From the NCBI RefSeq assembly GCF_033193315.1, contig NZ_CP136187.1, positions 3,665,501-3,729,500 of the forward strand: DNA of 64,000 nt. Reading direction: 5' to 3'. The DNA comes from Agathobaculum sp. NTUH-O15-33. Its GTDB lineage: Bacteria > Bacillota > Clostridia > Oscillospirales > Butyricicoccaceae. Positions 33,201 through 59,460 of this stretch are shown piece by piece. The position numbers were made by a program, and so were the translations under genes. Positions within the stretch are counted from its first letter, which is position 1, and each line of letters opens with the position of its first letter. The notes under the pieces are model-generated. The model did not search any database. It was not told where the DNA came from and worked only from the letters and a program-made list of their open reading frames with translations.

Positions 33201-33231
33201 AGGACCGCTTCCAATCGGAAGCGGTCCTCAG
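33201..33231 (-). terminator. Terminator of the 39-33.6 kb operon, distal hairpin copy
   Basis: AGGACCGCTTCC (33201-33212) pairs with GGAAGCGGTCCT (33217-33228). On the minus strand it is followed by TTTTT, a classical intrinsic terminator. The identical 31 bases recur at 33444-33474; the sequence between is the element described next. Confidence 0.75.
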
Positions 33232-33443
33232 CTTGTCAAAGAACCCCTTCGCGCCGCAGCGCGCATAAAATAGGATTTTGCCGCTTGCGGCAAAATCCAT
33301 AAAAAGCCGCGACATGTGCGTGGTTTTTTATACAAACCGGCTTCAAGTGTGCCTGTAAGGCGCGCGCAGAAGTCGGAATTCTCGATCGAAATGGGGCTTT
33401 GTTTCGATCGACAGACTGTCAAAAATAGTTTTTTGACAGTCTC
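33232..33443. mobile_element. Terminator-inserted repeat element, copy A (212 bp)
   Basis: The element lies between two identical 31-base copies of a terminator hairpin (33201-33231 and 33444-33474). Its ends carry TGTCAAA in inverted orientation: TTGTCAAAG at the left and TTTTGACAG at the right. Internal stems: GATTTTGCCG with CGGCAAAATC, CGATCGAAA with TTTCGATCG, and CTGTCAAAAA with TTTTTGACAG at the right end. The second copy at 59146-59418 shares both ends and the right 90 bases. No protein is encoded. Confidence 0.7.
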
Positions 33444-33474
33444 AGGACCGCTTCCAATCGGAAGCGGTCCTCAG
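33444..33474. repeat. Duplicate of the terminator hairpin flanking element A
   Basis: The same 31 bases as 33201-33231, in direct orientation. This copy is not followed by a T run on either strand, so it is the copy created by duplication and not the working terminator. Confidence 0.8.
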
Positions 33475-33478
33475 TTTG

Positions 33479-33571
33479 CCGGAAACCATATGGTTTCCGG
33501 TTTTTTGGCGGCGAAGCGGAGCGTTTTTCAGTCAAGGCAGACAGTTCGCTTCCGCTCCCCGCCAAAAAAAA
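33479..33571. terminator. Further terminator-like hairpins downstream of the ABC binding protein
   Basis: CCGGAAACC-ATAT-GGTTTCCGG followed by T6 (33479-33506) is a perfect terminator for plus-strand transcripts, although no plus gene precedes it. A second imperfect long stem, GGCGGCGAAGCGGAGCG with CGCTTCCGCTCCCCGCC (33507-33562), has A/T runs outside and would act on the minus strand after the binding-protein gene. Confidence 0.6.
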
Positions 33572-33626
33572 TAGGAGGAAAAAGAGAGAAGAAAGAGCGA
33601 TCAAAATTTGCGGTGAAAGCGAAGCC

Positions 33627-34730
33627 TTAACCGTTGACCAGCGAAGCGTCGCCAACCTCAGCCGGTGAAACATATTGGGTCACTTCATCTGTGTTCAGGT
33701 TTTCTGGGGTAATGAGCATAAAATCCATGGGGATGTATTCGGGTTCCTTGCGTACGGTATTGCCCATCGCTAGGTCATAGGCCATCTGGATCGCCTTCTG
33801 GTGCATGCCATAAGGGTTTTGCTGAATAATGCCCGAAATCCACTTTTGATCGCAGAGCTTGCGGGCGTCTGGGTCCAGATCAAAGGTCACGTTCAGCACT
33901 TCGCCGGGTGCTTTGCCCATTTCCTGCAACGCAACGCTCGTGCTGTTTGCAATTTCATTGAACGTTGAAAAAATAATCTTAATATCCGGGTTTGCGGTCA
34001 GTAGGTCATACGCGATGCTGTAGGACTTGGTCTGGTCATAGTTGGTATACTGCGTGCCGCCGCCGACCTGAACCATGCCCGGGTACTCCGCCAATGCGTC
34101 ATAGAATCCCTTTTCCCGCTGCATTTCGGTAGAAGCGCCCGTTGTACCTGAAATCATCGCGTATTTGCCCTCTCCGCCCAACTGCTCTAAAAAGACCTTA
34201 GCGGCGGAGTAGCTTGCCTGATAATTGTCTGTTGAGTAGAAGTAATCATAGGTGTCGCTGTTGATATTGGAATCGCAGGTGATAACGGGAATTCCCTTTT
34301 CATATAGCTTTTCCGCAACTGGGGCGAGGATGTCAATATCGATGGGGTCCATGACTACCGCTAAAGGGTTTGCGATTTCGATCGTTTCAGCGAGTTGGAT
34401 CTGCTTTTCAAGTTCCGCGGACGAGCTGGCCGCATACACGACAACTTCGGTCCCGCCAATAGAATCCGCCTTATTCATATTAAGGGTACCGGTCATCGCC
34501 ATTTCCCAAAAGCCGCCGGTGGTGTTTTTCAGCAGCACGTGTATTTTGCCGTCTGATTCCTTTGGATCTCGTATCGATGGCAGCGCGCCATCCGGCTTGT
34601 CGGGCGTTTGGGTACTGTTCTCGGCCGGAGCCGGATCAGCCGCCTCCTCGGGGGGCGTTTCCGCGGAGCACGCGCAAAGCGTCAGGGCGAGTACGGGAAC
34701 CAGCAAACGGGCGAATAATCTCTTTGTCAT
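33627..34730 (-). CDS. RbsB-like sugar ABC transporter substrate-binding lipoprotein
   Basis: A 367-residue lipoprotein. The signal peptide ends in the lipobox LTLCAC, followed by a Pro/Glu/Ala linker. The rest is a periplasmic-binding-protein type 1 fold (KIHVLLKNTTGGFWEMAMTGT, VVMDPIDIDILAPVAEKLYEKGIPVITCDSN, ISGTTGASTEMQREKGF). The ligand is probably a sugar or sugar acid imported by the divergently encoded ATPase and permease (41536-44094). It is last in the minus-strand operon, preceded by a hairpin that may tune its expression. Confidence 0.92.
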   Translation of the reverse strand: MTKRLFARLLVPVLALTLCACSAETPPEEAADPAPAENSTQTPDKPDGALPSIRDPKESDGKIHVLLKNTTGGFWEMAMTGTLNMNKADSIGGTEVVVYAASSSAELEKQIQLAETIEIANPLAVVMDPIDIDILAPVAEKLYEKGIPVITCDSNINSDTYDYFYSTDNYQASYSAAKVFLEQLGGEGKYAMISGTTGASTEMQREKGFYDALAEYPGMVQVGGGTQYTNYDQTKSYSIAYDLLTANPDIKIIFSTFNEIANSTSVALQEMGKAPGEVLNVTFDLDPDARKLCDQKWISGIIQQNPYGMHQKAIQMAYDLAMGNTVRKEPEYIPMDFMLITPENLNTDEVTQYVSPAEVGDASLVNG

Positions 34731-34769
34731 GGTTTTACCTCCTCTATCTGTTTCATGTTATCCAGTAAA

Positions 34770-34798
34770 GAAGCCCGGCGGTCATCCGCGCCGGCTTC
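34770..34798 (-). terminator. Intercistronic hairpin before the binding-protein gene
   Basis: GAAGCCCGGCG (34770-34780) pairs with CGCCGGCTTC (34789-34798). On the minus strand the tail is TTTAC, a weak terminator or 5'-stabilising hairpin. It sits in the 84-base gap between the isomerase and the binding protein. Confidence 0.45.
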
Positions 34799-34814
34799 CA
34801 AACCGCATGGGTTG

Positions 34815-35597
34815 CTATGCGTGATACGACATAATGGCCTTTGCCGCTTGCGCGGAGCCGGTTTGCGGCTCGAGCGCAAAGCCGACCATGCCTCGATAGC
34901 CGATGTCCTGAAGCGTTTGGCACAGGGCCTGAAAATCGATCTCCCCCGTACCCGGCTCATGCCTGCCGGGCACATCGGCAAAGTGGATATGTCCGATCAG
35001 GTTCCGGTACTTTTTCAGCGAGTCGATCAGACTGCCGCCGTATACCTGCATGTGATAAATGTCGCACAGCAACCGAACGCTCTCACAGTCGACCCGCTCG
35101 ACAATCGCGGCGGCGGTATCCACATGCGTCATGAATACGCCGGGGTGCGCGATCGGGTTGACCGCCTCGACAAGCAGTGTGACGCCAGCCTCCTGCATGA
35201 TAGGCGCCAGCTTTTGATACGTATCAAACATCGTCAGCAGTTTGGCGGCGTCGGAAAGCTCCCGGTATTCGTTCCGTACCGGTCCTTCTGGGGAAAGCGC
35301 GTTGGAATGGGTAACCAGAAATCTTGCTCCGAGCTCCTTAGCCGTTTTCGCGGAGCGCGTGACCAGATCGATGTACGCTTGCTGCCGCAACGGATCAAGC
35401 GGCGAATACAGCTCATCCCCGGTGAAGGCGACAATTTCGATTTCTGCCTTGCGGGCAGCTTGCTTGATCGCACCGATATCCTTGTCCAGCCATCCGGCGA
35501 ACTCCACCGCATCAAAACCGGCCGCCTTGGCCAGCTCAAAACGCGCTTCAAAAGGCGCCTCGGCGAACAGCATTTCAATATTCGCGCTTCGTTTCAT
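34815..35597 (-). CDS. Hydroxypyruvate isomerase family TIM barrel (Hyi/OtnI-like)
   Basis: A 260-residue TIM barrel. The start MKRSANIEMLFAEAPFEARFELAKAAGFDAVEF has the Hyi family pattern (ANI-x-MLF, then AGF-x-AVE-x). Metal ligands lie in LLVEAVNPIAHPGVF (Glu), LLCDIYHMQVYGG (Asp, His), IGHIHFADVPGRHEPGTGEIDF (His, Glu). Related OtnI enzymes isomerise 2-oxo-tetronates. The start ATG 35597 is preceded by GGAGAGGG. It overlaps the preceding dehydrogenase gene by 23 bases, so the two are co-translated. Confidence 0.85.
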   Translation of the reverse strand: MKRSANIEMLFAEAPFEARFELAKAAGFDAVEFAGWLDKDIGAIKQAARKAEIEIVAFTGDELYSPLDPLRQQAYIDLVTRSAKTAKELGARFLVTHSNALSPEGPVRNEYRELSDAAKLLTMFDTYQKLAPIMQEAGVTLLVEAVNPIAHPGVFMTHVDTAAAIVERVDCESVRLLCDIYHMQVYGGSLIDSLKKYRNLIGHIHFADVPGRHEPGTGEIDFQALCQTLQDIGYRGMVGFALEPQTGSAQAAKAIMSYHA

Positions 35598-36435
35598 TTC
35601 CCTCTCCATATTCCGCGATACCGCGCGTGAAGGACTGAATAAAATTTAGATTGAGCACGTCGTCCATCCAGCCCGGCTTCATGATCATTTCCATCCCCTT
35701 TTTCAGCGCTGCCTTCGCGCCGTCCGACATCGCGTTCGGATCCGCATCGCCGAATGAAGTGGCGAGCTGTGGCCGCAGGTGTCCGCGCACGAACGAATAA
35801 GTAACCTCTCTGGGAACGCCCATTGCAACGACACGTTCAGCCGCTTCCCGCATCGCCTCCAACAGGGGGGCGGTAATCAGCTCCACAATGCCCGGTTCCA
35901 GAATGCACATTTGTTCAGTGGTGATCCAGAAAACGGATTCCACGGGGGAGAACAGCTTCCGGGCCAGCGCTTCCAGTTCGGGCTGGTCCGCTGCTTCGCC
36001 CTGAGCCAACGCGCACACAATATCCTGCGGGGCGGTCCCGCCCCAGTAGTCCCGTTGTATGGCCGGGTCAGAGCTGGCGGTGAATACCGAAGGATGATTG
36101 GGATGCACCACGAAATACTTTAGATACGGCACCTGACATATCGCCCCGGCGTAGGTAGCGGCCGGATCGAGCGTAATCATGACGGCGCCCGGTTTCATCA
36201 GCGGCGCAGCTTGCCGGGAAATGAACTGTAGCAGCCTGTCCGGTACCGCGAGCACAACATAGTCAGCCTGCGGAAGGGAATCTTCCATGGTACTGGGTGT
36301 AACGCCCAGCGCTTCGACCGCGTCCGCTTGTGTATCAATAAAAAACACCTTTTCATAAGCGGGATCGCAGCGCAGCTTGCCTGTCAGGCGGCTTCCCACC
36401 TTGCCGGCCGCGCCAACCAATGCAACCTTTTTCAT
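35575..36435 (-). CDS. PGDH-like NAD(P)-dependent dehydrogenase (possible D-apionate oxidoisomerase type)
   Basis: A 286-residue protein with an N-terminal Rossmann fold (MKKVALVGAAGKVGSRLTGKL, then DYVVLAVPDRLLQFI) and an all-helical C-terminal domain (ELITAPLLEAMREAAERVVAMGVPREVTYSFVRGHL). It resembles the small phosphogluconate-dehydrogenase C-terminal family that includes apionate oxidoisomerase in D-apiose breakdown. That exact function is an inference supported by nearby OtnI-like and OiaC-like TIM barrels and an RbsABC-type transporter. The start ATG 36435 follows AAAGGATTGAG. Confidence 0.75.
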   Translation of the reverse strand: MKKVALVGAAGKVGSRLTGKLRCDPAYEKVFFIDTQADAVEALGVTPSTMEDSLPQADYVVLAVPDRLLQFISRQAAPLMKPGAVMITLDPAATYAGAICQVPYLKYFVVHPNHPSVFTASSDPAIQRDYWGGTAPQDIVCALAQGEAADQPELEALARKLFSPVESVFWITTEQMCILEPGIVELITAPLLEAMREAAERVVAMGVPREVTYSFVRGHLRPQLATSFGDADPNAMSDGAKAALKKGMEMIMKPGWMDDVLNLNFIQSFTRGIAEYGEGNETKREY

Positions 36436-36494
36436 TCTTCTCAATCCTTTCAAAGCAAAAATTGGTGAAACAGCAGATCATCTGGGCGGAGGGA

Positions 36495-37412
36495 TTACGC
36501 TTGATACATCCCGCGCCAGTCCGCGTCTTTTAAGACCGCGTCATACATTTGCTCGTACAGCGCGGGCCGCCAATCGGGCGCGCCAACTCTGGGGTTGCGC
36601 TCGAAATATGGATAGTGCGGCATCGTGCCTGTAAGATCGATCACGGCGGTGGCTATAGCGGGAATCGTGGCGGTTTCCTCTGTAAATGCGCATCCCGCAA
36701 CGACTTTGCACATTTCAATAGGCTCTGCGGGGGACAGTATGTGGCTTCCGCCGAAGTAGTGTTCGGCAAGCTCTGGCCCGGTCAGGTTGGCTGTTGCAAT
36801 GTGGATGGAATTTAACCCCGCGTGCCGCCCCAGCATTTGTTGGTAGGCGGCGCGCATCTCGGGGGCGGCGCATGCCGCGGCATTCAGCACAAGACTTGCC
36901 CCTTTGGCGCATGCATAGCGGTACATTTCAGGAAAACAGAAGCTGTCATACGAGAGAGAACACATGATTTTGCCGTAAGGCGTTTCAAACAGCAGCGGCA
37001 GCTTTTCGCCTTGGGAAGCCCAATGCGGCTCGGCGCCCGCCAGATGCAGCTTGTCGTACTGCCCCACCAGTCCCTGCGGGCCGCAAACCACCAAACTATT
37101 GTAAACCGCTCCGCCGCGTCGCACCGGCATCCCGAACGCAATGTAAAGCCGGTTTGCAATGGCGGCCTTTTCCACGGCGTCAGAGGATGGACCGGGCACG
37201 GGCTCCGCCAACAACTGTTGCATTGTTTTCTCTGCCGGGGCGTTGGGATCGTCCGCATGGCCGGTCAGCGACATCTCCGGAAAAAGCACGATTTTGCTTC
37301 CGGCCCGGCAGGCTTGTTCGCTATATTCTAAAATGCGCTGCAAATTATGGTCCTTATCGCCCCATACCGCCTGAAAATTAATGACGGACAGCGTTACACA
37401 AGCAGTTGCCAT
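36495..37412 (-). CDS. Nitrilase-superfamily paralogue with Cys-to-Ser at the nucleophile
   Basis: A 305-residue carbon-nitrogen hydrolase fold. Glu46 (LFPEMSLTG) and Lys121 (GQYDKLHL) of the triad are kept, but the nucleophile position reads CSLSYDSFCFPE, giving Ser154 where the paralogue at 38137 has Cys (GICYD). Cys151 and Cys159 flank it. It shares LLAEPVPGPSS and the C-terminal NPRVGAPDWRPALYEQM segment with that paralogue, so they arose by duplication. The start ATG 37412 follows AGTAAAGG; the longer frame upstream lacks family homology. Amidase activity is doubtful. Confidence 0.85.
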   Translation of the reverse strand: MATACVTLSVINFQAVWGDKDHNLQRILEYSEQACRAGSKIVLFPEMSLTGHADDPNAPAEKTMQQLLAEPVPGPSSDAVEKAAIANRLYIAFGMPVRRGGAVYNSLVVCGPQGLVGQYDKLHLAGAEPHWASQGEKLPLLFETPYGKIMCSLSYDSFCFPEMYRYACAKGASLVLNAAACAAPEMRAAYQQMLGRHAGLNSIHIATANLTGPELAEHYFGGSHILSPAEPIEMCKVVAGCAFTEETATIPAIATAVIDLTGTMPHYPYFERNPRVGAPDWRPALYEQMYDAVLKDADWRGMYQA

Positions 37413-37441
37413 ATCCTTTACTCCTGACTCTATTGATGACC

Positions 37442-38140
37442 TTATTCGCTGGGAACGCACAGAGTCCGCGCGTCTGCCGCAGACAAATCTATGGTATGGA
37501 TGTGCAGTTCGGGCGCGCAGCCCGCAGCCTTTGTGGGTAGACCGTTTAGATAAACGGCCGTTCCGTTTGCTCCCTCCCCGGGGCCGAGAATGCAGGCGCC
37601 GCCAGCCGCCCAATTTGCCGATGCGAAAAAGATTTGGTATTGCGCTGCACAGGCCGTCAGTTCCTCGTGAAAATGGGCTGACTCCGCCGCGCCGCAGGCG
37701 GCGGGATTGAGTACCAGCCTGGCGCCATTTGCATAGGCATGTTCGACGCCCCCGAAATCATCTAAGAAAACAATGCCTATCGTGCCCCAGTGGGTATCGA
37801 TCAGCTGCGCCCGCTCCGGTGATCTGGTTAGACAGATCGCCTGTCCGCCTGGTGTGCAGACAACAGCCTCGTGCCGCGGCGTGCTTTCTGCCGTCACGGC
37901 GCCGAATACCACATAGGCCGACAGCTCTCTGGTAAGCGCCGCAAGCTCCTGCGCCGCCCGGCAGCGCTCCTCCGGCGCGCTGCCTGTCAATCCGGATAGC
38001 GCCGCATGCGGGAACAACACAAGGTCCGCGCCTCTTTTGACGGCCGCCCGGATATAACCGGCTATCCTGCTCAGATTTTGCTCTGGCGCGCCGGAATAGG
38101 GCAAGAAGCTCACAAGTGCGACTGTGATGATCTGCCTCAC
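37442..38140 (-). CDS. Degenerate nitrilase-superfamily paralogue
   Basis: A 232-residue protein, shorter than its neighbours. The fold is recognisable (VALVSFLPYSGAPEQNLSRIAGYIRAA; GARLVLNPAACGAAE), but all three catalytic positions are changed: LFPH at the Glu position (His45), no Lys in the ICLTRSPERAQ segment, and IVFLDDF where GICYD is expected. It cannot work as a classical nitrilase. Its reading frame is intact and coupled (ATGA overlap) to the intact paralogue, so it may be a structural partner or binding protein. Confidence 0.8.
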   Translation of the reverse strand: MRQIITVALVSFLPYSGAPEQNLSRIAGYIRAAVKRGADLVLFPHAALSGLTGSAPEERCRAAQELAALTRELSAYVVFGAVTAESTPRHEAVVCTPGGQAICLTRSPERAQLIDTHWGTIGIVFLDDFGGVEHAYANGARLVLNPAACGAAESAHFHEELTACAAQYQIFFASANWAAGGACILGPGEGANGTAVYLNGLPTKAAGCAPELHIHTIDLSAADARTLCVPSE

Positions 38141-39072
38141 TTTTCACACACCTTCCTTTGCCATTCGCCGTCCATCAGCACATCCCTGCACATGGCCCGA
38201 TAGATCTCCGGTCTCCAATCCGGTGCGTTCGTTAGCGGATTGGTCCGGTATAGTGTGCAAGACTCGTTGTGTGCGGCAATGCTCAAGTCAATGGTTGCGC
38301 TGCATATGCCGGGGTGCTGTCCCGCCGCTGCGCCAAAAGGATAGCCCGCGTAATAGTGCATTCGGCCCGGTATGCCGGTGGGCCCCATAATGCAACTGCC
38401 ACCCATAAAATGCTTCACCAGATCCAGTCCGACCAAATTCGCATTCGCAATGTAAACGCTGTTTTCCAACACCAACGTTTCCAGATCGTCCCGATTGACG
38501 CATGGCAGGATATCCTCAAACGGCAGCGCCGTTACGTTGATAAACAGTTGACCTCCCATGGCCTTCGTATAGCGCACCATCTCTGGAAATTTGTAGGTGT
38601 CGTAGCAAATGCCAATGCCGATGCGTCCGAAGCAAGTTTCCAGCAGCAGCGCCCGCTCTCCGGCGGATGCCCAGCTGACCTCGCCAAACGGGATATGGGC
38701 TTTTCGGTAAGACAAAAGTCTGCCGTCGGGGCAACAGATCACCGCCGTGTTGTAGATCGTCAACGGATCCGCAGCGTCCCGCTCAGGCATGCCGAAGAGG
38801 ATGTAGGCTCCAGTTTGCGCCGACAGCGCCGCGACCGCCCTTGAGGACGGCCCGGGCACGGGCTCCGCAAGCAGGGTTTGCATTTTTTGCTCCTTTTCTT
38901 TGTGCGGCTCGTCGTCGTATCCGGTAAGCGCAAGCTCCGGAAAAACGATCATATCGGCGCCGGCGTCCGCCGCCTCTTTGGAATAGCTTAAAATCCGCGA
39001 CAGGTTGGCCTGCTTATTCCCCCAAACCGTTTTAAAATTTACAGTGGAAAGGTTCACAATGCTCTCGGTCAC
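38137..39072 (-). CDS. Nitrilase-superfamily amidohydrolase with intact triad
   Basis: A 311-residue carbon-nitrogen hydrolase with the full Glu-Lys-Cys triad: Glu46 (VFPELALTG), Lys124 (SYRKAHIPF) and Cys156 (GICYDTYKFPE). Such enzymes cleave amides, carbamoyl groups or nitriles; the substrate is unknown. It begins with GTG 39072 behind AGGAGGGG. First gene of the minus-strand operon, under a strong promoter and GCATCA sites. It is likely the only active enzyme of the three. Confidence 0.9.
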   Translation of the reverse strand: MTESIVNLSTVNFKTVWGNKQANLSRILSYSKEAADAGADMIVFPELALTGYDDEPHKEKEQKMQTLLAEPVPGPSSRAVAALSAQTGAYILFGMPERDAADPLTIYNTAVICCPDGRLLSYRKAHIPFGEVSWASAGERALLLETCFGRIGIGICYDTYKFPEMVRYTKAMGGQLFINVTALPFEDILPCVNRDDLETLVLENSVYIANANLVGLDLVKHFMGGSCIMGPTGIPGRMHYYAGYPFGAAAGQHPGICSATIDLSIAAHNESCTLYRTNPLTNAPDWRPEIYRAMCRDVLMDGEWQRKVCEK

Positions 39073-39194
39073 AATACTCCCCTCCTGCGCACAGCATTGT
39101 CACGAATCGTGTAACGCATCATGCAATGCATCACGTTGTCGCAATCTCTTGCAAAAATGCTCGAATCATGTCGTTTTCTCTTTATCATAGTTTG

Positions 39195-39223
39195 AATATA
39201 GTCGATAGACTTGCGAATGTCAA
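39195..39223 (-). promoter_or_regulatory. Promoter of the nitrilase operon
   Basis: On the minus strand TTGACA (plus 39218-39223), a 17-base spacer and TATATT (plus 39195-39200). It is flanked on both sides by GCATCA pairs (39235-39251 and 39116-39133). A strong promoter that needs repression fits this layout. Confidence 0.8.
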
Positions 39224-39435
39224 CAATAATTTACGCATCATTTGCGCATCATTGGAAAATATATGTTATTTATTAAGCACATAAACCGTTTTTATTTTTA
39301 TACAATTTTATATATTATGACGAATAAAGCAAAAAATATTTAAAAATATGGTGTATGCTCGCAGAAATAGTTGTATTTATGCACCCATCTCATTTTGCAT
39401 CAAATTGCGATAATGATTTTTTGATGCATTTCATA

Positions 39436-39465
39436 TTGACATTAATATTTGAATTGGTGTATGAT
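39436..39465 (+). promoter_or_regulatory. Promoter of the lacI-type gene and transporter operon
   Basis: TTGACA (39436-39441), an 18-base spacer and TATGAT (39460-39465). A GCATCA pair (39506-39521) lies between the start site and the ribosome site AAGGAG, allowing autorepression. Confidence 0.7.
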
Positions 39466-39532
39466 GTAGGCAATTTAAGCGGCTATTTTATAACAATATG
39501 GCGGTGCATCATTACGCATCAAGGAGACTGTT

Positions 39533-40579
39533 ATGATTTCTACCAGAGAACTTGCCCGTATTGCCAACGTCAGCCAATCAACGGTTTCCCGCAGTTTGCG
39601 GGACAGTCCCGAGATCTCCGTTGAAACAAAAACCCGCATCTGGAACATTGCGAAACAACACGGCTATATCACGCGGGAAAACCCTTCCAAGACCGTGATG
39701 AGCGGTCAGCGTAAGGCCATAGGCGTCTTGATAACCTTTCTCCCTTTCCTGAATGACATTTGCATGAATCAGCTGCTTAGCACGCTTTACAGTTCGATCG
39801 AGGAGGAAAACTATTATGCGATCCCTCTGATTAATTACAGCGGCGAGGAAGGGGTACAAAAACTGCGCAATTTCATCAGGCTCGGTTTGGTGGAAGGTTT
39901 TATCATTATCAACAGGACCTACGACCCGGCGATTGATGCGTACCTCAACGGGGTGGGCATGCCGGTTGTTTATTTAATCTACTATTCCAGAGATGCGGCC
40001 GAGCATACGGTAATTGTGGATGCAGACAACTACATGGGCGGTCATATTGCCGCGCAGCATCTCATTTCGTTGGGGCATCGCGATTTTATCGTAATCACCT
40101 CGCAATGGGATGAGTTTAAGGACCGCACACGCGGCTTCTTAAGCGGTCTGAGCGACAATGGGTTATCCATCCCGCCGGAAAACATATTTTGCGAGGATTG
40201 CTTTTACGATGTAGGCTACCGTCTGATTTCTGAAAACTTGCATCTGTTTCAAAAAGCCACTGCAATTTATGTGCAGGCGGATATTGTGGCCTTTGGCGTG
40301 GTCAACGCGCTTAAGGACCACGGCATTTCCGTTCCGGACGAAGTTTCCGTCATCGGTACAGATGGTTTAGAGCTCGGGGCGCTATGCCGTCCGCAACTCA
40401 CCAGTATTGCTTCCCCCTTCCGAGATATGGCCAACATCACGATCGGCAAGCTGATGGAGGTGAGCAATAATCCCGGAAAGGAAACCATCACAACGAGAAC
40501 AATTTTGCCGCCTTCGCTGCTGGTTCGGGAATCCACCGCACCGCCACCGAGGCGCACCGGAGGCGGGGAAATAGGATGA
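39533..40579 (+). CDS. LacI family transcriptional regulator
   Basis: A 348-residue regulator: an N-terminal helix-turn-helix with hinge (STRELARIANVSQSTVSRSLRDSPEISVETKTRIWNIAK) and a sugar-binding core (AIGVLITFLPFLND, IVDADNYMGGHIAAQHLISLGHRDFIVI, DEVSVIGTDGLELG). It most likely controls both divergent operons through the GCATCA sites around it. Its last codons overlap the next gene by ATGA. The inducer would be the sugar or sugar acid imported by the adjacent ABC system. Confidence 0.92.
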   Translation: MISTRELARIANVSQSTVSRSLRDSPEISVETKTRIWNIAKQHGYITRENPSKTVMSGQRKAIGVLITFLPFLNDICMNQLLSTLYSSIEEENYYAIPLINYSGEEGVQKLRNFIRLGLVEGFIIINRTYDPAIDAYLNGVGMPVVYLIYYSRDAAEHTVIVDADNYMGGHIAAQHLISLGHRDFIVITSQWDEFKDRTRGFLSGLSDNGLSIPPENIFCEDCFYDVGYRLISENLHLFQKATAIYVQADIVAFGVVNALKDHGISVPDEVSVIGTDGLELGALCRPQLTSIASPFRDMANITIGKLMEVSNNPGKETITTRTILPPSLLVRESTAPPPRRTGGGEIG

Positions 40580-43026: not shown

Positions 43027-43041
43027 TGGGAGGATTCTGAA

Positions 43042-50863: not shown

Positions 50864-50876
50864 ATATGGTTGTGGT

Positions 50877-51588: not shown

Positions 51589-51681
51589 CAGAGCACGACA
51601 AAGAGACACGTTTTATATCTCACACATGGCAACTGTTCTTTCCTATATCTTCAGTCTGCGAATAGTGCTTTCAAAATCAAT

Positions 51682-51716
51682 AAAGATCGTCGCCTTGGCC
51701 GGCAACGATCTTTTTT
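51682..51716 (+). terminator. Terminator after XRE paralogue 1
   Basis: AAAGATCGT-C-GCC pairs with GGC-A-ACGATCTTT around a short loop and is followed by T6. Confidence 0.75.
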
Positions 51717-51740
51717 ATTGGTAGTATTTTTTCTTTTGCA

Positions 51741-51878
51741 TTAGAAATCCAGTTGTACAATTTCCTTCATACAGGCCCGGCAAACGTTTTTAAAATAAAA
51801 ATGCACGACATATTTAGCAATAGGGAAAACGATTCGTCCCAGTTCATCGATTTTCCGTAAAATACCAGTAGCTTTCAT
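51741..51878 (-). pseudogene. Remnant of an AbrB/SpoVT-type regulator (internal deletion)
   Basis: A 45-codon frame on the minus strand reads MKATGILRKIDELGRIVFPI, the exact start pattern of a common Firmicute AbrB family, then jumps to FKNVCRACMKEIVQLDF, which resembles the C-terminal Cys-x-x-Cys tail of the same family. The middle of about 40 residues is missing. There is no good ribosome site. It is best read as a decayed gene, though a functional miniprotein cannot be excluded. Confidence 0.55.
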
Positions 51879-52116
51879 AAAGGATTACAATTTCATATTC
51901 AGCTTGCTTATCCAGCGAAATTCCCGCGCGGCATTCCTCTTTTAGGATATTCCAGCACATCCAACCAGATCAATTATATCTTATAGAGATTCATAGGTTA
52001 TGAAAAATTATTCTTTTAGGATTATTTACTTCTTTTAGAATATTTCGCATTCTTTCAACGAATAGTAAAGTTTACACATCAAAATGCATTAAATGATTCA
52101 AATAGGGGTTTGAAAT
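51879..52116. other. AT-rich non-coding stretch
   Basis: Repeated TTCTTTTAGGAT/TTCTTTTAGAAT motifs lie around 52010-52045. I see no gene. The likely promoter of the two following XRE genes is somewhere in this AT-rich sequence, but no unique box pair stands out. Confidence 0.4.
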
Positions 52117-52461
52117 ATGGATGTATTGATAGAATTTTCAAAACGGCTACGCACGTTGCGAGGGCAACGAGGCTATACCGCTGAACAACTTGCCGAAAAA
52201 AGTGATTTATCTGTAGGACATATCCGACAATTAGAAAAGGGCAGTAGAGCACCAACGCTTAGTTCTTTAATTACACTATCTAACGCCTTAGATGTTACGC
52301 CTATTTCAATGATGTTAAGTGATTTTACTGAGCAAAGCGAAACCAATATTGTACAGAACGAGGACATCTCTTTTTTAAATGATAAGCAGATATGTTTTAT
52401 TTTAGATACGATTGACGGAATGATACTGCGTGTTAAAGGAATTTATGATGAATGCAAGTGA
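52117..52461 (+). CDS. XRE-type helix-turn-helix regulator (114 residues)
   Basis: N-terminal XRE domain (LRTLRGQRGYTAEQLAEKSDLSVGHIRQLEKGSRAPTLSSLITLSNALDVTPISMML) and a 50-residue helical tail (NDKQICFILDTIDGMILRVKGIYDE) probably for dimerisation. AT-rich. It overlaps the next XRE gene by 17 bases, so the two are expressed together. Confidence 0.85.
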   Translation: MDVLIEFSKRLRTLRGQRGYTAEQLAEKSDLSVGHIRQLEKGSRAPTLSSLITLSNALDVTPISMMLSDFTEQSETNIVQNEDISFLNDKQICFILDTIDGMILRVKGIYDECK

Positions 52462-52789
52462 ATTAAAAGCAGTCGGGAATCGAATTAGAATTGTCAGAGA
52501 GCGACAAGACCTTACCATTGCGCAGCTTGAAAACAAAACCGGACTTGCAGCAACACACATCCGAAATATTGAAAATGGCGCTAAGCCAATTAGCATAACC
52601 AGTCTTGTTAAAATTTGTAATGCACTGCATGCCGATATGAACTATTTGTTGTGCGATGTATCTAGAATATCCAGCATTTACGCGCTTAATAAACTTTTAA
52701 AGGATTGTACGCAATCTCTCAGCCATGACGAATATGCTTTAATCAGCTGCACGTTTAATATATTAATGCATAATTTAAAATCAGTTTGA
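52445..52789 (+). CDS. XRE-type helix-turn-helix regulator (114 residues, second)
   Basis: XRE domain NRIRIVRERQDLTIAQLENKTGLAATHIRNIENGAKPISITSLVKICNALHADMNYLL followed by a helical tail ending in ISCTFNILMHNL. Same layout as the preceding gene but with low identity, so a different regulator. The start ATG 52445 follows AAAGGA; the adjacent ATG 52448 is also possible. Confidence 0.82.
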   Translation: MMNASELKAVGNRIRIVRERQDLTIAQLENKTGLAATHIRNIENGAKPISITSLVKICNALHADMNYLLCDVSRISSIYALNKLLKDCTQSLSHDEYALISCTFNILMHNLKSV

Positions 52790-52905
52790 CCGTATGGCAT
52801 AGAGTTGTTCAGAACAGGGAACCGGTCCGTTTTTTCTCGTTTATTGTGGCGTTTTGCTGGTTGGTGGAGACGTTTGCGTGTCCCATTGCAAGATGAGGTG
52901 TGATT

Positions 52906-53163
52906 ATGTCTAGAATTATCGATGGTGAGCAGTTAAATCTCATTGGTGAAAAAGTAAAACAAGCAAGAAAGAAGCTTAAATTCAGTCAAAAACAGCTTGC
53001 CGACCGGCTGGAAACCGAAGCTGTTTATATTTGCCGCGGCTCGATCTCGCGAATTGAAAGCGGAGAAAGGACCGTAACAGATATCGAGATTGCCGGACTT
53101 TCTAAGGTTTTGCTGGTTCCAATCAATGAGTTATTTCCTGCCGACGCAGGCTTTCAAAAATGA
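52906..53163 (+). CDS. XRE-type helix-turn-helix regulator, paralogue 2
   Basis: An 85-residue near-copy of the 51331 gene: only about a dozen residues differ (e.g. EKVKQARKKLKFSQKQLADRL). The ribosome site and about 20 upstream bases are shared too, so the unit was duplicated, with the two larger XRE genes now between the copies. It lies 59 bases from the right-hand palindrome. Confidence 0.85.
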   Translation: MSRIIDGEQLNLIGEKVKQARKKLKFSQKQLADRLETEAVYICRGSISRIESGERTVTDIEIAGLSKVLLVPINELFPADAGFQK

Positions 53164-53196
53164 CAGAGCAGGACAAACAAGGGATTGACCGAGATT

Positions 53197-53215
53197 GTAG
53201 GGCGCGACGCCCTCG
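53197..53215. repeat. Half copy of the GTAGGGC element
   Basis: GTAGGGCGCGACGCCCTCG matches the right arm of the copy at 26306-26331. It lies 7 bases before the palindrome that closes the regulator island. Confidence 0.5.
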
Positions 53216-53222
53216 AACACAT

Positions 53223-53262
53223 GGGGACGGTTCTTCTGTGCTGACACAGCAGAACCGTCCCC
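53223..53262. repeat. 40-bp palindrome of the GGGGACGG family, right border of the regulator island
   Basis: GGGGACGGTTCTTCTGTG and its inverse surround CTGA, with one mismatch in the stem. Together with the copy at 50824 it brackets the AT-rich AbrB/XRE island of about 2.4 kb. GC content rises sharply right after it. Confidence 0.85.
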
Positions 53263-53336
53263 GTGTGTTTTGTGTTTTCCCCTCCCTCATATTCGCCGGG
53301 CGCGGCGAATAAAATGGGGCGAAGGGAGGGGCGCAT

Positions 53337-53474
53337 ATGCAGGAGGCACTGCGGGTCTCTATCCGCATTTCTGAAAAGGACAGCGAAAAGGCGCGCGCCG
53401 ATGTCAAGACCGCGATCGCCGAGGCGCGGCGCGGCTTCGGCTTACCGCTTGCCGCACCGCGCTGCGGGCCGTGA
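53337..53474 (+). CDS. Small ORF coupled to the serine recombinase
   Basis: A 45-codon frame starting MQEALRVSIRISEKDSEKARADVKTAIAEARRG, with a charged helical character. The strong site GGGAGGGG lies 5 bases before the ATG, and its stop overlaps the recombinase start codon (GTGA), a coupling signature. I do not recognise it; a leader peptide for translational coupling or a recombination accessory factor are both possible. Confidence 0.5.
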   Translation: MQEALRVSIRISEKDSEKARADVKTAIAEARRGFGLPLAAPRCGP

Positions 53475-55043
53475 CCGCGGTTTACGCCCGCCAATCGGTC
53501 GAGCGGGCGGACAGTATTTCGATCGAGACCCAGATCGACCGCTGCAAAAGTCGGCTGACCGCCGGGGAGCTTGCCGATTGCCGCGTATATACGGACCGCG
53601 GCTTTTCAGGCAAAAACACCGCGCGCCCCGCGTTCCAATCGCTGCTTTCCGATATCGAAGCCGGGCAGATCGGCAAGATCGTGGTCTACAAGCTTGACCG
53701 TGTCAGCCGTTCGGTGCACGACTTTACCGGGCTGTGCGAGCTGCTGGGGGCAAAAAACGTGGCCTTTCTATCCTGCGAGGACGGGCTGACGCTGGATGAA
53801 ACGCCCGCCGGTGCGGCCATGGCGCAAATTATGATGGTATTTGCGCAGTTCGAGCGCGAGACCATCGTGCGCCGCGTGACGGACAACTACTACGAACGCG
53901 CCAAAAGCGGCATGTATCTGGGCGGGCGGCCGCCCTTTGGCTTTGTCAAGGGACAAACCGCTGTTTTGGGCAAAAAGACCGCCTGCTTTGCCCCTGATCC
54001 GGACACCGCCCCGCTCGTGCGGGCGCTGTTTGAACGCTATTTGGAGCCGGACGCTTCGCTCGGCACGCTGATGCGCTGGCTGAACGACGAATTGCGCCTG
54101 CCCACTGGGCGCGGCGGCGCGTGGAGCACGGTGCAGCTGGGTCGCTTGCTGCGAAATCCCGCCTATGCGCGCGCGGACGCGCTGGTATACCGTTACCTGC
54201 GGCAAAAGGGGGCGCAAATGAACGATCCCGTGCTGGCTTACGCGGGCGAGCGCGGCTGCTACCTTTATGCCCCGCGCGAGGGGCGCACCAAAAGCAAATT
54301 TGCCGATTTGAACGGCGCGTTCGTTTCACTCGCGCCGCACCACGGCCTTGTGGAAGCCGATATCTGGCTGCGCGCCCAGCAGAAGCTTGACCAAAACCGC
54401 GCGCTGAAAAACACCGGGCGCGGCGCGCACAGCTTTTTATCCGGCATTATGAAATGCGCGCACTGCGGCTACGCCGTCACGGTGGTAAACAAGCCCGCGC
54501 CGCACCGGGAGCACTACATAAACTGCGGCGGGCGCAAAAAAGGGCGCGGCAATCTGCCCCGGACGGTCGCGCCCCATGACGCTGGAGCAGATCGAAGGCG
54601 CGGTGGAAAGCGTGCTTTTGCGTTTTTTGAAAAGCTACGCCGCCGTGCCCCTGCGGCCCGCGCCCATAGACCGTGCCGCCGGGGCAAAGCTGGACACTGA
54701 GATCGTCACGCTGGAACAGGAGGCCGCGCGGCTCAGCCGCAATCTAGCGCTGATCGACCTGCCCGACGTGGTGCGACAGACCGCGCGGGACCTGCACGAG
54801 AAAAACGAACGGCTGGCCGCCCTGCACCGGGAGCGGGACGCGTTGGCCGCGCCGCAAAGCGATACCGCGCTCGAACGGTTCTTCGCCGCCGTGCCGGAGG
54901 AATGGCCGCGCTATACCATTGAGCAGAAAAAGCGCATCGCGCGCATCGCGCTTGAACGAGTGGATGTTGGGGACGGTGAAGTGACCGTGACCTTTGCCGC
55001 CGGGTTTGGCGATTGCCCGCTCGCTATAGACAATTCTCTTTGA
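53471..55043 (+). CDS. Large serine recombinase, interrupted by a +1 frameshift
   Basis: Resolvase/invertase catalytic domain at the N-terminus: VYARQSVERADSISIETQ with nucleophile Ser9, VVYKLDRVSRSVHDFTGL and MMVFAQFERETIVRRVTDNY. Then a recombinase domain (GGRPPFGFVKG... LGRLLRNPAYARADALVYRY), a zinc ribbon (MKCAHCGY ... YINCGGRKKGRGNC) and a coiled-coil C-terminus (LEQEAARLSRNLALI, HEKNERLAALHRERDAL). The frame is broken near 54551-54554; skipping one base restores the fourth zinc Cys and joins the two parts into about 523 residues, the normal size. GTG start overlapping a small ORF. Such enzymes integrate phages and ICEs; no att sites were recognised. Confidence 0.88.
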
Positions 55044-55100
55044 CAACCGGGCCCAACCCGTATAAACTGGTGGTAAGCCAAAGGGACGGGAGGGGCCAAC

Positions 55101-56300
55101 ATGCAGCGGAGAGAACAGATCCTGCAAAACCTGCGCGCGCGGATACGGACGAACGGCCACTCAATCGGCGTGGCCGCGGGCAGCGGCATGACCGCGCGCT
55201 ACGCCGTTATGGGCGGAGCGGATTTTATCCTCGCGCTCAGCGCGGGCAAGTTCCGTCAAGTGGGGCAAGGCTCCATCGCGAGCCTTTTGTGTTATGCCAA
55301 TTCCAACGAGCTGGTGATGAATTTCGGCACCAAGGAGCTGCTGCCCGCGGTGCCCGATACGCCCGTTATTTTTGGGCTGAACGCCTCCGATCCCACCATT
55401 CATCTGTATGAATACCTGCAAACCATTGCCGCGTGCGGCTTTTCCGGGGTGAATAACTTCCCGACGATCGGCCTGATCGACGGAACCTTTCGCCGCGCTT
55501 TGGAACAGGAAGAGGGCATGAGCTATGCGCAGGAGGTAGAAGCCATCCGTCTGGCGCACTTTATCGGCCTGTTCACGATCGCCTTTGTCTTTAATGAGGC
55601 GCAGACCGCGCAAATGCTGGGCGCGGGGGCCGATGTGATCTGCGTGCATCTGGGCCTGACGGTAGGCGGCAAAAAAGGCGCGAAAAAAGCGGACACGCTG
55701 GAGCAAGCCCGCATCAAGACCGACCGCATTTTCGACCTATGCGATAAGACGCGGCCCGGCATTATCAAGATGATCTACGGCGGCCCGATCAGCAACCCGG
55801 CCGACGTCGCGTTTTTTTACCACAGCAGCGGCTGCATGGGGTATATCGGCGGTTCGGCGTTCGAGCGCATCCCGATCGAACGCGCCATCCTTGAAACCAC
55901 GCAGGCCTTCCAGAGCTACGGCAACCCGGAGGAGGACGGCGCGGCGGCCCGCCCGCTCGCGCAGCGCGCGGCCGAGGAGGACGCGATTGCCGCCGTGCGC
56001 GGCTATATCGAAGCGAACTACCAGAGCGAGATCACGCTGCGCGACATGGCGGCCATGACGCACCTCTCCCCCTCTTATTTGAGCACCAAGTTTAAAAAAG
56101 AGACGGGCTACAGCTTTTCCGAATACCTGCTGCGCCACCGACTGGACCGGGCGGCCGCATTGATCCGAGGGAGCGAGCTGCCGCTCGTGCAAGTCGCCGA
56201 CCGGGTTGGGTACCGCGATTACGCGCAGTTTAGCAAAATGTTTAAAAAATACCGCGGCCTTTCGCCCGCCGCGTTCCGCAATGCCAAGGCCGCGCCTTAA
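55101..56300 (+). CDS. TIM-barrel (PEP-hydrolase/Tm-1 C-terminal family) fused to an AraC DNA-binding domain
   Basis: A 399-residue fusion. Residues 1-275 match the stand-alone TIM barrel at 57787 segment by segment: GVAAGSGMTARYAVMGGADFI, NFPTIGLIDGTFR, VICVHLGLTVGG, MIYGGPISNPADVAFF, GYIGGSAFERIPIE. Residues about 290-395 are an AraC double helix-turn-helix (ITLRDMAAMTHLSPSYLSTKFKKETGYSF, LPLVQVADRVGYRDYAQFSKMFKKYRGLSP). The barrel therefore probably senses the ligand that the downstream enzyme handles, and the protein activates the following operon. Some barrel residues differ from the paralogue (e.g. ALSAGKF for YNSGRF), so catalysis may be lost. It starts 57 bases after the recombinase stop. 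Confidence 0.88.
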   Translation: MQRREQILQNLRARIRTNGHSIGVAAGSGMTARYAVMGGADFILALSAGKFRQVGQGSIASLLCYANSNELVMNFGTKELLPAVPDTPVIFGLNASDPTIHLYEYLQTIAACGFSGVNNFPTIGLIDGTFRRALEQEEGMSYAQEVEAIRLAHFIGLFTIAFVFNEAQTAQMLGAGADVICVHLGLTVGGKKGAKKADTLEQARIKTDRIFDLCDKTRPGIIKMIYGGPISNPADVAFFYHSSGCMGYIGGSAFERIPIERAILETTQAFQSYGNPEEDGAAARPLAQRAAEEDAIAAVRGYIEANYQSEITLRDMAAMTHLSPSYLSTKFKKETGYSFSEYLLRHRLDRAAALIRGSELPLVQVADRVGYRDYAQFSKMFKKYRGLSPAAFRNAKAAP

Positions 56301-56515
56301 ATTTGTGTTTTTATTTTTTAAGCTAATCTATATCCATCATTTTTTTGTTTTTCATGCCGGATAATTATAGGAAAAAGCAACAAAACCCAATATAAACACA
56401 TGTGAAATTTTATGCTTTTGCGGTAGAATGGTCTTATCAAGAAAAGGCCGTTTTACCGCAATTTTCTTTGTACGAAAGCGGCTTACGCCAATGTGAAAGC
56501 GAGGGAGGAATACCG
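56301..56515 (+). promoter_or_regulatory. Promoter region of the Tm-1-like operon with an inverted repeat
   Basis: An AT-rich region. TTGCGGTA (56418-56425) and TACCGCAA (56454-56461) form an inverted repeat with a 28-base gap, a possible operator. TAGAAT (56424-56429) may be a -10 box without a good -35. A block AAATTTTATGCTTTTG (56406-56421) resembles the second activator block at 50753 and 45992, in the opposite orientation to its gene. The site GGGAGGAA precedes the next start. Confidence 0.4.
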
Positions 56516-57733
56516 ATGAAAACGATTTGCATTGCCGGCACGCTGGATACCAAGGGCCGCGAGTTCCAATATGTGAAGGAGCTGATCGAAAGCCTTGGAC
56601 TTGGGGCCTTCACGGTGCATACCGGCGTTTACGAGCCGGCGTTTCCGCCGGACGTCGGCAACGACGAGGTGGCCGCCGCCGCGGGCTACGATATCGGCGA
56701 GATCGCCGGGCGGCACGACCGCGCCTATGCGACCGAGGCCATGAGCGAAGGCATGGAAAAGCTCATTCCCCGGCTTTATGAGCAGGGCAAGTTCGACGGT
56801 ATCCTCTCCTTCGGCGGTTCGGGCGGCACCTCGCTCGTCACGCCCGCGATGCGCGCGCTGCCGATCGGCGTGCCCAAGCTGATGGTTTCCACCATGGCTT
56901 CGGGCAACGTATCGCAGTACGTGGGCACCAGCGATATCCTGATGATGCCTTCCATTGTCGACGTTTCCGGCCTGAACAGCTTTTCCACCAAGATCTTCTC
57001 CAACGCGGTATTCGCCATGGCGGGCATGGTCAGCTTTGAAAGCAAGCAGCAGATAGAACACAAGCCGCTTGTCGCCGCGACGATGTTCGGCGTGACGACG
57101 CCGTGCATCACCCGCGCGCAGGAATATTTGGAGCAGCGCGGCTACGAGGTGCTGGTCTTCCACGCCACGGGCGCGGGCGGCCAATCGATGGAGGCGCTGA
57201 TAAACGGCGGCTTTATCAAGGGCGTGCTCGATCTGACCACCACCGAATGGTGCGATGAGATCGTCGGCGGCGTACTGAACGCGGGCCCCGACCGGTGCTC
57301 CGCCGCGCCGAAAAACGGCGTGCCCCAAGTTGTTTCTGTGGGCGCGCTCGATATGGTGAACTTTGGCCCATGGGACACGGTGCCGCAGCAGTTTGCGGGC
57401 CGCAACCTGTACCGCCACAACCCAACCGTTACCCTGATGCGCACAACGGCCGAGGAATGCAAGCAGATCGGCGGGGCGATCGCGGAAAAGCTGAACCTGA
57501 GCCAGCCCGGCAAGACCGTGCTGATGCTGCCGCTCGGCGGCGTTTCCGGTATTGACGCGCCCGGCCAGCCGTTCTATGGCGAAGCGGAGGACAAGGCGCT
57601 GTACGACACCCTGCGCGGCCGGGTAGACCAAAGCAAGGTCGATATCATCGAACGGCCCGAAAACATCAACGACCCCGCGTTCGCGGACGCCGCCGCGCAA
57701 AAGCTGATCGACCTGATGGAAGCCGGTTCATAA
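56516..57733 (+). CDS. Tm-1-like ATP-binding domain protein (UPF0261)
   Basis: A 405-residue UPF0261 protein: start TICIAGTLDTKGREFQYVKELIESLG, GILSFGGSGGTSLVTPAMRALPIGVPKLMVSTMASGN, TMFGVTTPCITRAQEYLEQRGYEVLVFHATGAGGQSMEALI, LDLTTTEWCDEIVGG. These are the conserved nucleotide-binding segments of the N-terminal half of tomato Tm-1, the ToMV resistance protein. The bacterial function is unknown. The start ATG 56516 follows GGGAGGAA. The next gene encodes the other half of Tm-1, 53 bases away. Confidence 0.93.
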   Translation: MKTICIAGTLDTKGREFQYVKELIESLGLGAFTVHTGVYEPAFPPDVGNDEVAAAAGYDIGEIAGRHDRAYATEAMSEGMEKLIPRLYEQGKFDGILSFGGSGGTSLVTPAMRALPIGVPKLMVSTMASGNVSQYVGTSDILMMPSIVDVSGLNSFSTKIFSNAVFAMAGMVSFESKQQIEHKPLVAATMFGVTTPCITRAQEYLEQRGYEVLVFHATGAGGQSMEALINGGFIKGVLDLTTTEWCDEIVGGVLNAGPDRCSAAPKNGVPQVVSVGALDMVNFGPWDTVPQQFAGRNLYRHNPTVTLMRTTAEECKQIGGAIAEKLNLSQPGKTVLMLPLGGVSGIDAPGQPFYGEAEDKALYDTLRGRVDQSKVDIIERPENINDPAFADAAAQKLIDLMEAGS

Positions 57734-57786
57734 CCTCACACACCTTACAATCATTTAACGGAACCACACATAAGGAGGATTTTATT

Positions 57787-58617
57787 ATGCTGTACAAATC
57801 GAGAGCCGAGATCATTGCGGACTTTAAGGCGCAGGTAGCGCAGGGCAAAATACTCGTCGGCGTGGGCGCGGGCACCGGCATTACCGCCAAGTGCTCGGAA
57901 GCGGCGGGCGTCGATATGCTGATCATCTACAACTCCGGCCGGTTCCGTATGGCGGGCCGCGGCTCGCTCTCCGGCCTGCTGGCCTATGGCGACGCCAACC
58001 AGATCGTCGTCGAGATGGGGCAGGAAGTGCTGCCGATCGTTAAAAAGACCCCGGTGCTCGCCGGTGTTTGCGGCACCGATCCGTTCCGCGTGATGGATAT
58101 TTACCTGAAACAGCTGCAAGCGCAGGGCTTCAACGGCGTGCAAAACTTCCCGACGGTCGGCCTGATCGACGGCAACTTCCGCGCCAATCTGGAAGAGACC
58201 GGCATGGGCTACGGGCTTGAGGTAGATATGATCCGCAAGGCGCACGAGCTTGACATGGTCACCTGCCCGTATGTATTCGATGTGGAACAGGCCAAGGCGA
58301 TGGCCGCCGCCGGCGCGGACTGCCTCGTCGCGCACATGGGCCTGACGACCAAGGGTTCGATCGGCGCGGAGACCGCGAAAACGCTGGATAGCTGCATTCC
58401 GCTCATCCGCGACATCATTGCCGCGGGCCGCTCGGTCAATCCGGATATTATGGTCATCTGCCACGGCGGCCCGATCGCCGACCCGGAGGACGCCGCCTAC
58501 ATCATCAAAAACGTGCCCGAGATCGACGGCTTCTTCGGCGCTTCGTCCATTGAGCGTTTGGCTTCCGAACGCGGCATGACCGCGCAGGCCGCCGCTTTCA
58601 AGGCGATCAGCAAATAA
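57787..58617 (+). CDS. TIM-barrel protein of the PEP-hydrolase / Tm-1 C-terminal family
   Basis: A 276-residue TIM barrel: KILVGVGAGTGITAKCSEAAGVDMLIIYNSGRFRMAGRGSLSGLLAYGDAN, GVCGTDPF, NFPTVGLIDGNFR, CLVAHMGLTTKG, MVICHGGPIADPEDAAYII, GFFGASSIERL. This is the domain that forms the C-terminal half of tomato Tm-1; some relatives hydrolyse phosphoenolpyruvate-like compounds. Together with the upstream UPF0261 gene it is the split bacterial form of Tm-1. Strong site AAGGAGG. Confidence 0.92.
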   Translation: MLYKSRAEIIADFKAQVAQGKILVGVGAGTGITAKCSEAAGVDMLIIYNSGRFRMAGRGSLSGLLAYGDANQIVVEMGQEVLPIVKKTPVLAGVCGTDPFRVMDIYLKQLQAQGFNGVQNFPTVGLIDGNFRANLEETGMGYGLEVDMIRKAHELDMVTCPYVFDVEQAKAMAAAGADCLVAHMGLTTKGSIGAETAKTLDSCIPLIRDIIAAGRSVNPDIMVICHGGPIADPEDAAYIIKNVPEIDGFFGASSIERLASERGMTAQAAAFKAISK

Positions 58618-58669
58618 CCGTGCTCTTTCAGGAACGCCACCCACCGTGTTTACGAAAGGAAGGTTCTTT

Positions 58670-59092
58670 ATGAGTAAATATTTGAGCATGGTATCACCGG
58701 ACGACGTGGAAACACAGGTGCTTGACTGGGGCTCCTTCCAGTGGCTGAACGAACCGCGCGTGACCGGCGCGGATAAAATGATCGTCGGCATCGGCCGCAT
58801 CAAGCCCGGCAAGGGCCACGCGCGCCACAACCATCCGGACAGCGAGGAATTCATTTACTTCATGGAAGGCAAGGCCCGCCAGATGATCGAGCGGCCGGAC
58901 GGCACGCAGGAGCGCGACATGGGCCCCGGCGAGCTGATCTCCATCCCGCAGGGCGCGTTTCATTCCACTTTCAACGTAGGCGACAGCGATCTGGTCTTTA
59001 TGTGCTGTTACCTGAACGCGGGCTCTGAGCTCGCCATCCGTAAAGACGCTATCGAAGTTCTTCCCCCGAAAAACAACTGGGCGGAAGAATGA
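58670..59092 (+). CDS. Cupin-domain protein
   Basis: A 140-residue single cupin. Motif 1 GKGHARHNHPDSEEFIYFMEGKA contains the metal-binding His-x-His and Glu; motif 2 GPGELISIPQGAFHSTFNVG contains the last His. It could be a sugar isomerase, dioxygenase or binding protein. Start ATG 58670 with AAAGGAAGG upstream; an in-frame ATG-less start at 58646 is unlikely. Last gene of the Tm-1-like operon, before a terminator. Confidence 0.87.
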   Translation: MSKYLSMVSPDDVETQVLDWGSFQWLNEPRVTGADKMIVGIGRIKPGKGHARHNHPDSEEFIYFMEGKARQMIERPDGTQERDMGPGELISIPQGAFHSTFNVGDSDLVFMCCYLNAGSELAIRKDAIEVLPPKNNWAEE

Positions 59093-59108
59093 GCTCCTCC
59101 CTTATACA

Positions 59109-59145
59109 GGCAGGGCCCGCGCTCAAAATGAGCGCGGGCCCTGCC
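59109..59145 (+). repeat. Proximal terminator-hairpin copy flanking element B
   Basis: A perfect 17-bp stem, GGCAGGGCCCGCGCTCA with its complement, loop AAA. It has no T run; that is attached to the distal copy. Its last 32 bases (59114-59145) are identical to 59419-59450. Confidence 0.8.
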
Positions 59146-59418
59146 GTAGCGTGTCAAATAACCCTTCGCGCCGCAGCGCGTAATAAAATTGAAAATTGAA
59201 GCTTTGCTTCAATTTGACCAAAAACCGGGAGCATGTATCTCGGTTTGCTCTCATTTAATCGCCGCACGGCGGCGGAAAATGGATAGAGGCCTATGGGCTG
59301 AACAAACCGGCGGCGAAGTGTGCCCAAAGGGCGCGCGCCAGAGCCGGAATTCTCGATCGAAATGGGGCTTTGTTTCGATCGACAGGCTGTCAAAATAGTT
59401 TTTTGACAGCCTGAGACA
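59146..59418. mobile_element. Terminator-inserted repeat element, copy B (273 bp)
   Basis: Same element as 33232-33443. The left ends share GTCAAA then CCCTTCGCGCCGCAGCGCG; the right ends share CGGAATTCTCGATCGAAATG, GGGCTTTGTTTCGATCGACAG, CTGTCAAAA and TAGTTTTTTGACAG. The middle carries a different hairpin (AAATTGAAGC with GCTTCAATTT) in the place of copy A's GATTTTGCCG hairpin, plus about 60 extra bases. It lies between two 32-base copies of a terminator hairpin. No coding capacity. Confidence 0.72.
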
Positions 59419-59460
59419 GGCCCGCGCTCAAAATGAGCGCGGGCCCTGCCTGTGTTTTTT
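59419..59460 (+). terminator. Terminator of the Tm-1-like operon, distal hairpin copy
   Basis: GGCCCGCGCTCA pairs with TGAGCGCGGGCC, loop AAA, then CTGCCTGTG and T6. Removing element B with one hairpin copy rebuilds a perfect terminator (ACAGGCAGGGCCCGCGCTCA stem followed by T6), which indicates the ancestral state. Confidence 0.75.

Follow-up and report, generated by a model that had tools for sequence, protein, structure and literature searches.

The two short elements at 33229-33443 and 59147-59413 of the window (the whole stretch of 64,000 nucleotides analysed here, from Agathobaculum sp. NTUH-O15-33, contig NZ_CP136187.1, positions 3,665,501 to 3,729,500) belong to a family of miniature inverted-repeat transposable elements (MITEs) that is found at hairpins, mostly intrinsic terminators, with a copy of the whole hairpin on either side. 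With high confidence, we interpret this family as being moved in trans by a DDE transposase of the IS1182 family of insertion sequences (ISs), an enzyme which would choose hairpins by their structure, so that the target duplication is the whole palindrome. An earlier note on this DNA had proposed a mobile element that targets and duplicates hairpins, and this proposal is borne out by 34 of 39 copies in the genome, by four empty sites among 18 tried in a second strain and by 15 of 19 autonomous relatives.

Both window copies display this arrangement. Copy 1 (215 bp, plus strand, CAGCTTGTCAAAGAAC ... TTTTTTGACAGTCTC) lies between two target hairpins read on the minus strand, the left one with a 12-bp stem (33201-33228) and the right one at 33444-33471, and the direct repeat that they form is 31 nt long and exact (33201-33231 and 33444-33474). 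An A-run, i.e. a T-run on the minus strand, stands left of the left hairpin, which can therefore be read as terminating the minus-strand gene at 33627-34730, a periplasmic sugar-binding type protein according to Pfam (PF13407); the right hairpin is devoid of this T-run. Copy 2 (approx. 267 bp, plus strand, TAGCGTGTCAAATAAC ... TTTTTTGACAGCCTG, a member of the longer subfamily) is inserted behind the plus-strand gene at 58646-59092, which encodes a cupin-domain protein (PF07883, Pfam). Its left hairpin (59109-59145, plus strand, stem of 17 bp) is followed by the element in place of the T-run, its right hairpin (59419-59450, plus strand) is followed by a T-run, and the exact direct repeat of 32 nt covers 59114-59145 and 59419-59450. 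The earlier note had rightly equated these repeats with the local terminator hairpins, and had also recognized that the two hairpins are unrelated in sequence, that only the distal one, away from the gene, keeps its T-run, and that the orientation of the element relative to the terminator differs between the two copies. Two of its statements hold in part. The flanking hairpins were described as complete, but the right hairpin of copy 2 has lost part of its outer 5' arm. Likewise, the two copies are real, but the boundaries proposed for them (33232-33443 and 59146-59418) are moved by the family comparison to approximately 33229-33443 and 59147-59413. Across the family, the element extends from CAG (or TAG) to CTG, copy 1 ending in CTC.

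Dozens of copies of this family are present in the 4.0-Mb genome, which is assembled as one contig of 4,005,854 bases. Searches of the contig yielded at least 92 match segments with copy 1 as query and at least 71 with copy 2; as scoring covered 40 of 125 candidates in the first search and 40 of 101 in the second, the copy number is to be read as a lower bound. A census was built from 57 places, keeping copies with both ends present and a length of at least 185 bp. Both ends were not recovered by pattern at 14 places, window copy 2 (locus L071) being restored by eye, and five of the 43 others were shorter than 185 bp (L047, L048, L057, L065 and L066), which left 39 copies. Locus L024, with similar hairpins but a changed left end, and L026, which retains half of its right hairpin, were dropped; L016 and L027 were kept despite damaged left ends, the boundary of L016 being set by hand. 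Of 20 loci around lone end-like matches, many proved to be coding sequence matching by chance, and these were excluded. Most of the 39 copies measure 211-307 bp, a length that no transposase gene fits.

A duplicated hairpin on both sides was found for 34 of these 39 copies (33 of the 38 copies scored by script, together with window copy 2) and is absent from five; the hairpins differ from site to site and are thus specific to the site rather than a constant part of the element. Neither outcome that the earlier note would have taken as a refutation was obtained: further copies mostly do have duplicated hairpins, and the hairpin sequence is not the same at every site. As a control, the 1.4-kb flanks of 30 loci were examined, intergenic and other DNA taken together: none of 9000 placements produced a repeat of 20 bp or more with up to three mismatches, and the share of positions next to a comparable hairpin was 0.15% on each side (76,800 positions per side).

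The length of the duplications is informative with respect to their origin. In the 33 scripted copies, it ranges from 23 to 43 bp (mean 33.1, standard deviation 4.7), with 27 mismatches in 1092 bp. In DDE elements, the enzyme generally dictates a target duplication that is short and constant in length; for the IS1182 family, the range is 0-60 bp. A fixed stagger of approximately 30 bp, combined with a preference for terminators, would be compatible with the observed mean and standard deviation, hairpin and duplication then coinciding as terminators are themselves about 30 bp long. We nevertheless regard a fixed stagger as very unlikely. Indeed, the duplication follows the length of the hairpin (r = 0.93), the feet of the stems lie at the joints, and the duplications around related ISs vary from approximately 20 to 41 bp while holding one palindrome each. 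The stem directly abuts the element in 19 of 33 cases on the left and in 20 of 33 on the right, with gaps between -1 and 4 bp. On at least one outer side, 31 of the 33 duplicated hairpins have an A-run or T-run, scored as six or more such bases in 12; the other two have neither, and what is targeted thus seems to be the palindrome, not the T-run or the terminator as such.

Empty sites, which the earlier note had suggested looking for, were sought in Butyricicoccus faecihominis DFI.6.109 (hereafter G060), a strain of the same species, for 18 joined sites of the window genome. Four of them (L010, L012, L018 and L019) are uninterrupted in G060, with a single hairpin each, and the MITE is thus present in one strain and absent from the other at these sites. 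These four sites also bear on the idea that the hairpins belong to the element, or travel with it, and are not target duplications. Hairpins do stand at both ends of every duplicated copy, as this idea requires, but they vary by site, and it is refuted where exactly one such hairpin occupies each of the four empty sites; we give it hardly any credit. For the other sites, L014 was read as filled in G060, and L005, L017, L023, L032 and L037 gave two separated flank matches and look filled from the spacing of the matches alone. L002 holds a shortened element whose right hairpin is gone. At L001, L031 and L071, either a single flank matched or the two flanks matched different contigs, and no flank match in G060 was listed for L006, L009 and L025. 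At L029, the flank matches are 7.4 kb apart. On contig C9 of G060 (399-447 and 7825-7872; L112 and L155), approximately 7.4 kb separate a tRNA-Met gene from its terminator, and the 3' end of tRNA-Met occurs a second time, which resembles the outcome of a mobile element integrating at a tRNA.

In its ends, CAG..TGTCAAAGAA, the MITE agrees with insertion sequences of the IS1182 family. Among 25 genomes of the genus, nine contain a match to PF13751 (11 matches in total), and an exact search for TGTCAAA beside these matches retrieved the terminal repeat only at one locus of the same species, L103 of G060 (contig NZ_JANGCE010000017.1). There, the contig starts with the C-terminal part of an IS1182-type transposase, followed by the right end ...TTCTTTGACAGTCTG and by a hairpin. 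Apart from the orientation of the loop, this hairpin and the bases beyond it match the insertion site of MITE copy L029, which lies behind the tRNA-Met gene. The transposase fragment of 123 residues scores 91.2 bits with NF033551, the NCBI model of IS1182 transposases, below the whole-protein cut-off of 270, and the transposase of L119 scores 406.4 bits with the same model. A genome scan with the G060 fragment gave 21 loci, of which 11 are titled Oscillospiraceae. The left ends at the scanned IS loci (L113, L115, L116 and L119) read CAGCTTGTCAAAGAAC, CAGCTTGTCAAAAAAC or CAGTCTGTCAAAGAAC, the first being the left end of the MITE, and their right ends CAGNCTGTCAAAGAA in L112-L129 match that of the MITE.

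Both ends of an IS copy were recognized in three of these 21 loci, 11 of 17 further matches and five of eight plasmid stretches; loci that were truncated, cut by the end of a contig or record, or whose ends were not found (e.g. L173, L174, L180, L185 and L187) were left out. Around 15 of the 19 complete IS1182-family copies thus obtained from other bacteria, the hairpin is duplicated: L115, L116, L119, L163, L164, L166, L167, L170, L175 and L177-L179, together with three elements in plasmid records, namely an annotated ISEfa7 (L181) and those of Rhizobium (L183) and Aminobacter (L184). Like the MITE, these copies have CAG..TGT.. ends; unlike the window element, they carry a transposase gene, which is broken in some of them. 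The MITE and the ISs therefore have the same target and the same type of duplication in common, and this mode of duplication reaches from Clostridia to Bacilli and Alphaproteobacteria.

Several observations weigh against this interpretation. Five of the 39 MITE copies (L013, L030, L033, L040 and L045) have no duplication, and two of these, L013 and L040, are flanked by two complete hairpins that differ from each other and both abut the ends. The same holds for the four IS copies without duplication, each being located between two different complete hairpins (L168, L171, and the plasmid-borne L182 from Peribacillus and L186 from Staphylococcus simulans). Such copies need a later recombination or loss, perhaps recombination between copies, and no reciprocal products were found by eye for L013, L040, L168, L171, L182 or L186. 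Moreover, a single IS of one genome (G227) accounts for four of the 15 IS copies with a duplication, namely the separate insertions L175 and L177-L179. The MITE and the ISs have only approximately 16-20 terminal bases in common, the IS of the same species is known only from a fragment that a contig end truncates, and PF13751 has no match in the window genome, where no partner is now visible. The transposase gene with the same ends that the earlier note had recommended looking for thus exists as a fragment in G060 and as complete ISs in relatives, but not in the genome of the window itself.

A last difficulty comes from the loops, as those of the two flanking hairpins are mutually inverted in three MITE copies (L023, L025 and L029) and one IS (L163), an arrangement that simple gap filling does not produce. 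At L010, the only hairpin in G060 (L136) has its loop inverted with respect to the window strain; since the loop differs here between a filled and an empty site, the inversions may stem from later template switching within palindromes, which is our guess, and palindromes in these genomes seem to flip their loops. The right-end hairpin of the element in L014 also has an inverted loop. The remodelling of hairpins seen in L023, L025 and L029, and between strains at L010, could suggest that the repeats arose without any transposase, through replication slippage, template switching between palindromes or homologous recombination. Such an origin is highly improbable in our opinion, considering that dozens of copies at unrelated sites have the same ends, that copies are present or absent between strains, and that the ends are common to IS1182-type ISs.

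Other mobile elements are known to use hairpins or terminators, among them group IIC introns, HUH elements of the IS200/IS605-REP type and integron attC sites. We attribute next to no probability to an element of this sort, given that these ends also occur with a DDE transposase; the combination of inverted terminal repeats and long target duplications is not known to fit any of these three. Rfam covariance models gave no match at the gathering threshold in the window. Replacement of the stem-loop as in IS1272, by deletion and without duplication, was also considered and rejected, both hairpins being present in 34 of the 39 copies.

With regard to internal structure, the alignment of the 39 copies separates two types of internal hairpin and hence two subfamilies, in line with the earlier note, which had reported hairpins of different sequence at the same internal position of the two window copies; that of copy 1 is at 33273-33298. 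The right end (33412-33443 in copy 1, CAGACTGTCAAAAATAGTTTTTTGACAGTCTC; 59382-59413 in copy 2) is a palindrome made of two back-to-back terminal repeats throughout the alignment. Its stem varies among copies by paired changes, with the variants AGACTGTC, AGGCTGTC and AGGATGTC each accompanied by its complement, which indicates that the right end is kept as a palindrome. This palindrome may itself have arisen as a side product of the same chemistry, or may serve the transposase as a second end. Related repeats with another left end (...GTCGAAAAAGTCCTCACGCCGCAGCGTG or similar) were observed at L024, L038, L043 and L048, and perhaps constitute a second MITE subfamily. None of the five short forms of 32-160 bp set aside from the census has a duplicated hairpin. 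Three of these forms, at L057 (position 2022) and L065 (position 1989), both of 32 bp, and at L066 (position 1984, 54 bp), contain little beyond two terminal repeats and adjoin hairpins without duplication. Within the genus, 20 of 23 further genomes gave matches to the MITE (E <= 1e-4), many of these matches being partial and possibly including related subfamilies; outside the genus, 0 of 36 genomes did so.

These features can be assembled into a putative mechanism. The transposase would select DNA hairpins by their structure, mostly those of intrinsic terminators, recognize the extruded cruciform and join the element at both feet of the stem (the 5' feet). A single-stranded hairpin would thereby be left on each flank and then filled in, so that the whole palindrome would appear on both sides and set the length of the duplication. 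On its outer side, each hairpin would retain its own A-run or T-run; a complete terminator should therefore remain beyond the insert, and insertion should cost little. The MITE, for its part, would be mobilized in trans by an IS whose terminal repeats it shares.

The IS1182 family already offers parallels for part of this scheme. IS1272 and TnSha1, which have terminal inverted repeats, choose inverted repeats or stem-loops as targets irrespective of sequence, and several of these targets are transcription terminators (PMC5678879, PMC4923244). In contrast to the window MITE, which duplicates the whole stem-loop, they replace it or partly delete it without duplication: IS1272 replaces the stem-loop, duplication of the whole structure being drawn only as a possible pathway (PMC5678879, Fig 13, pathway b), and partial deletions affect hairpins of which some are mapped terminators (PMC4923244). 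The ISMac2 MITEs of Methanosarcina (160 and 169 bp, in 14 and seven copies) are, like the window element, short non-autonomous IS1182 derivatives, but the table that lists them gives, as its columns read, direct repeats of 4 and 0 bp rather than whole hairpins (PMC3852290). ISCaa15, an IS1182-family IS of 1434 bp, is listed with a 4-bp direct repeat (PMC3196728). The earlier note knew of no described element with duplications of terminator length. This has to be qualified, as the family and its targeting of hairpins are published and the element is of a known kind, an IS1182-family MITE; duplication of the whole hairpin, for its part, was found in the literature searched only as a hypothetical pathway. 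No report of such duplication was retrieved from that literature, which did not extend to two insertion-sequence reviews, and our description of this mode as little described rests on that search.

Beyond this genome, it seems likely to us that in much of the IS1182 family the transposase recognizes the foot of a cruciform and generates a duplication of exactly one palindrome. Terminators would then be self-restoring safe havens in which MITEs accumulate by the dozen, the deletion known from IS1272 being the other result of this recognition. A duplication whose length (approx. 20 to 43 bp) is set by the structure of the target represents a genomic signature of structure-guided strand transfer, for which one genome offers dozens of natural sites, and provides sequence evidence for the pathway that had been drawn merely as a possibility for IS1272. 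It also suggests a simple reason for the multiplication of these elements, as each insertion should rebuild the terminator that it hits.

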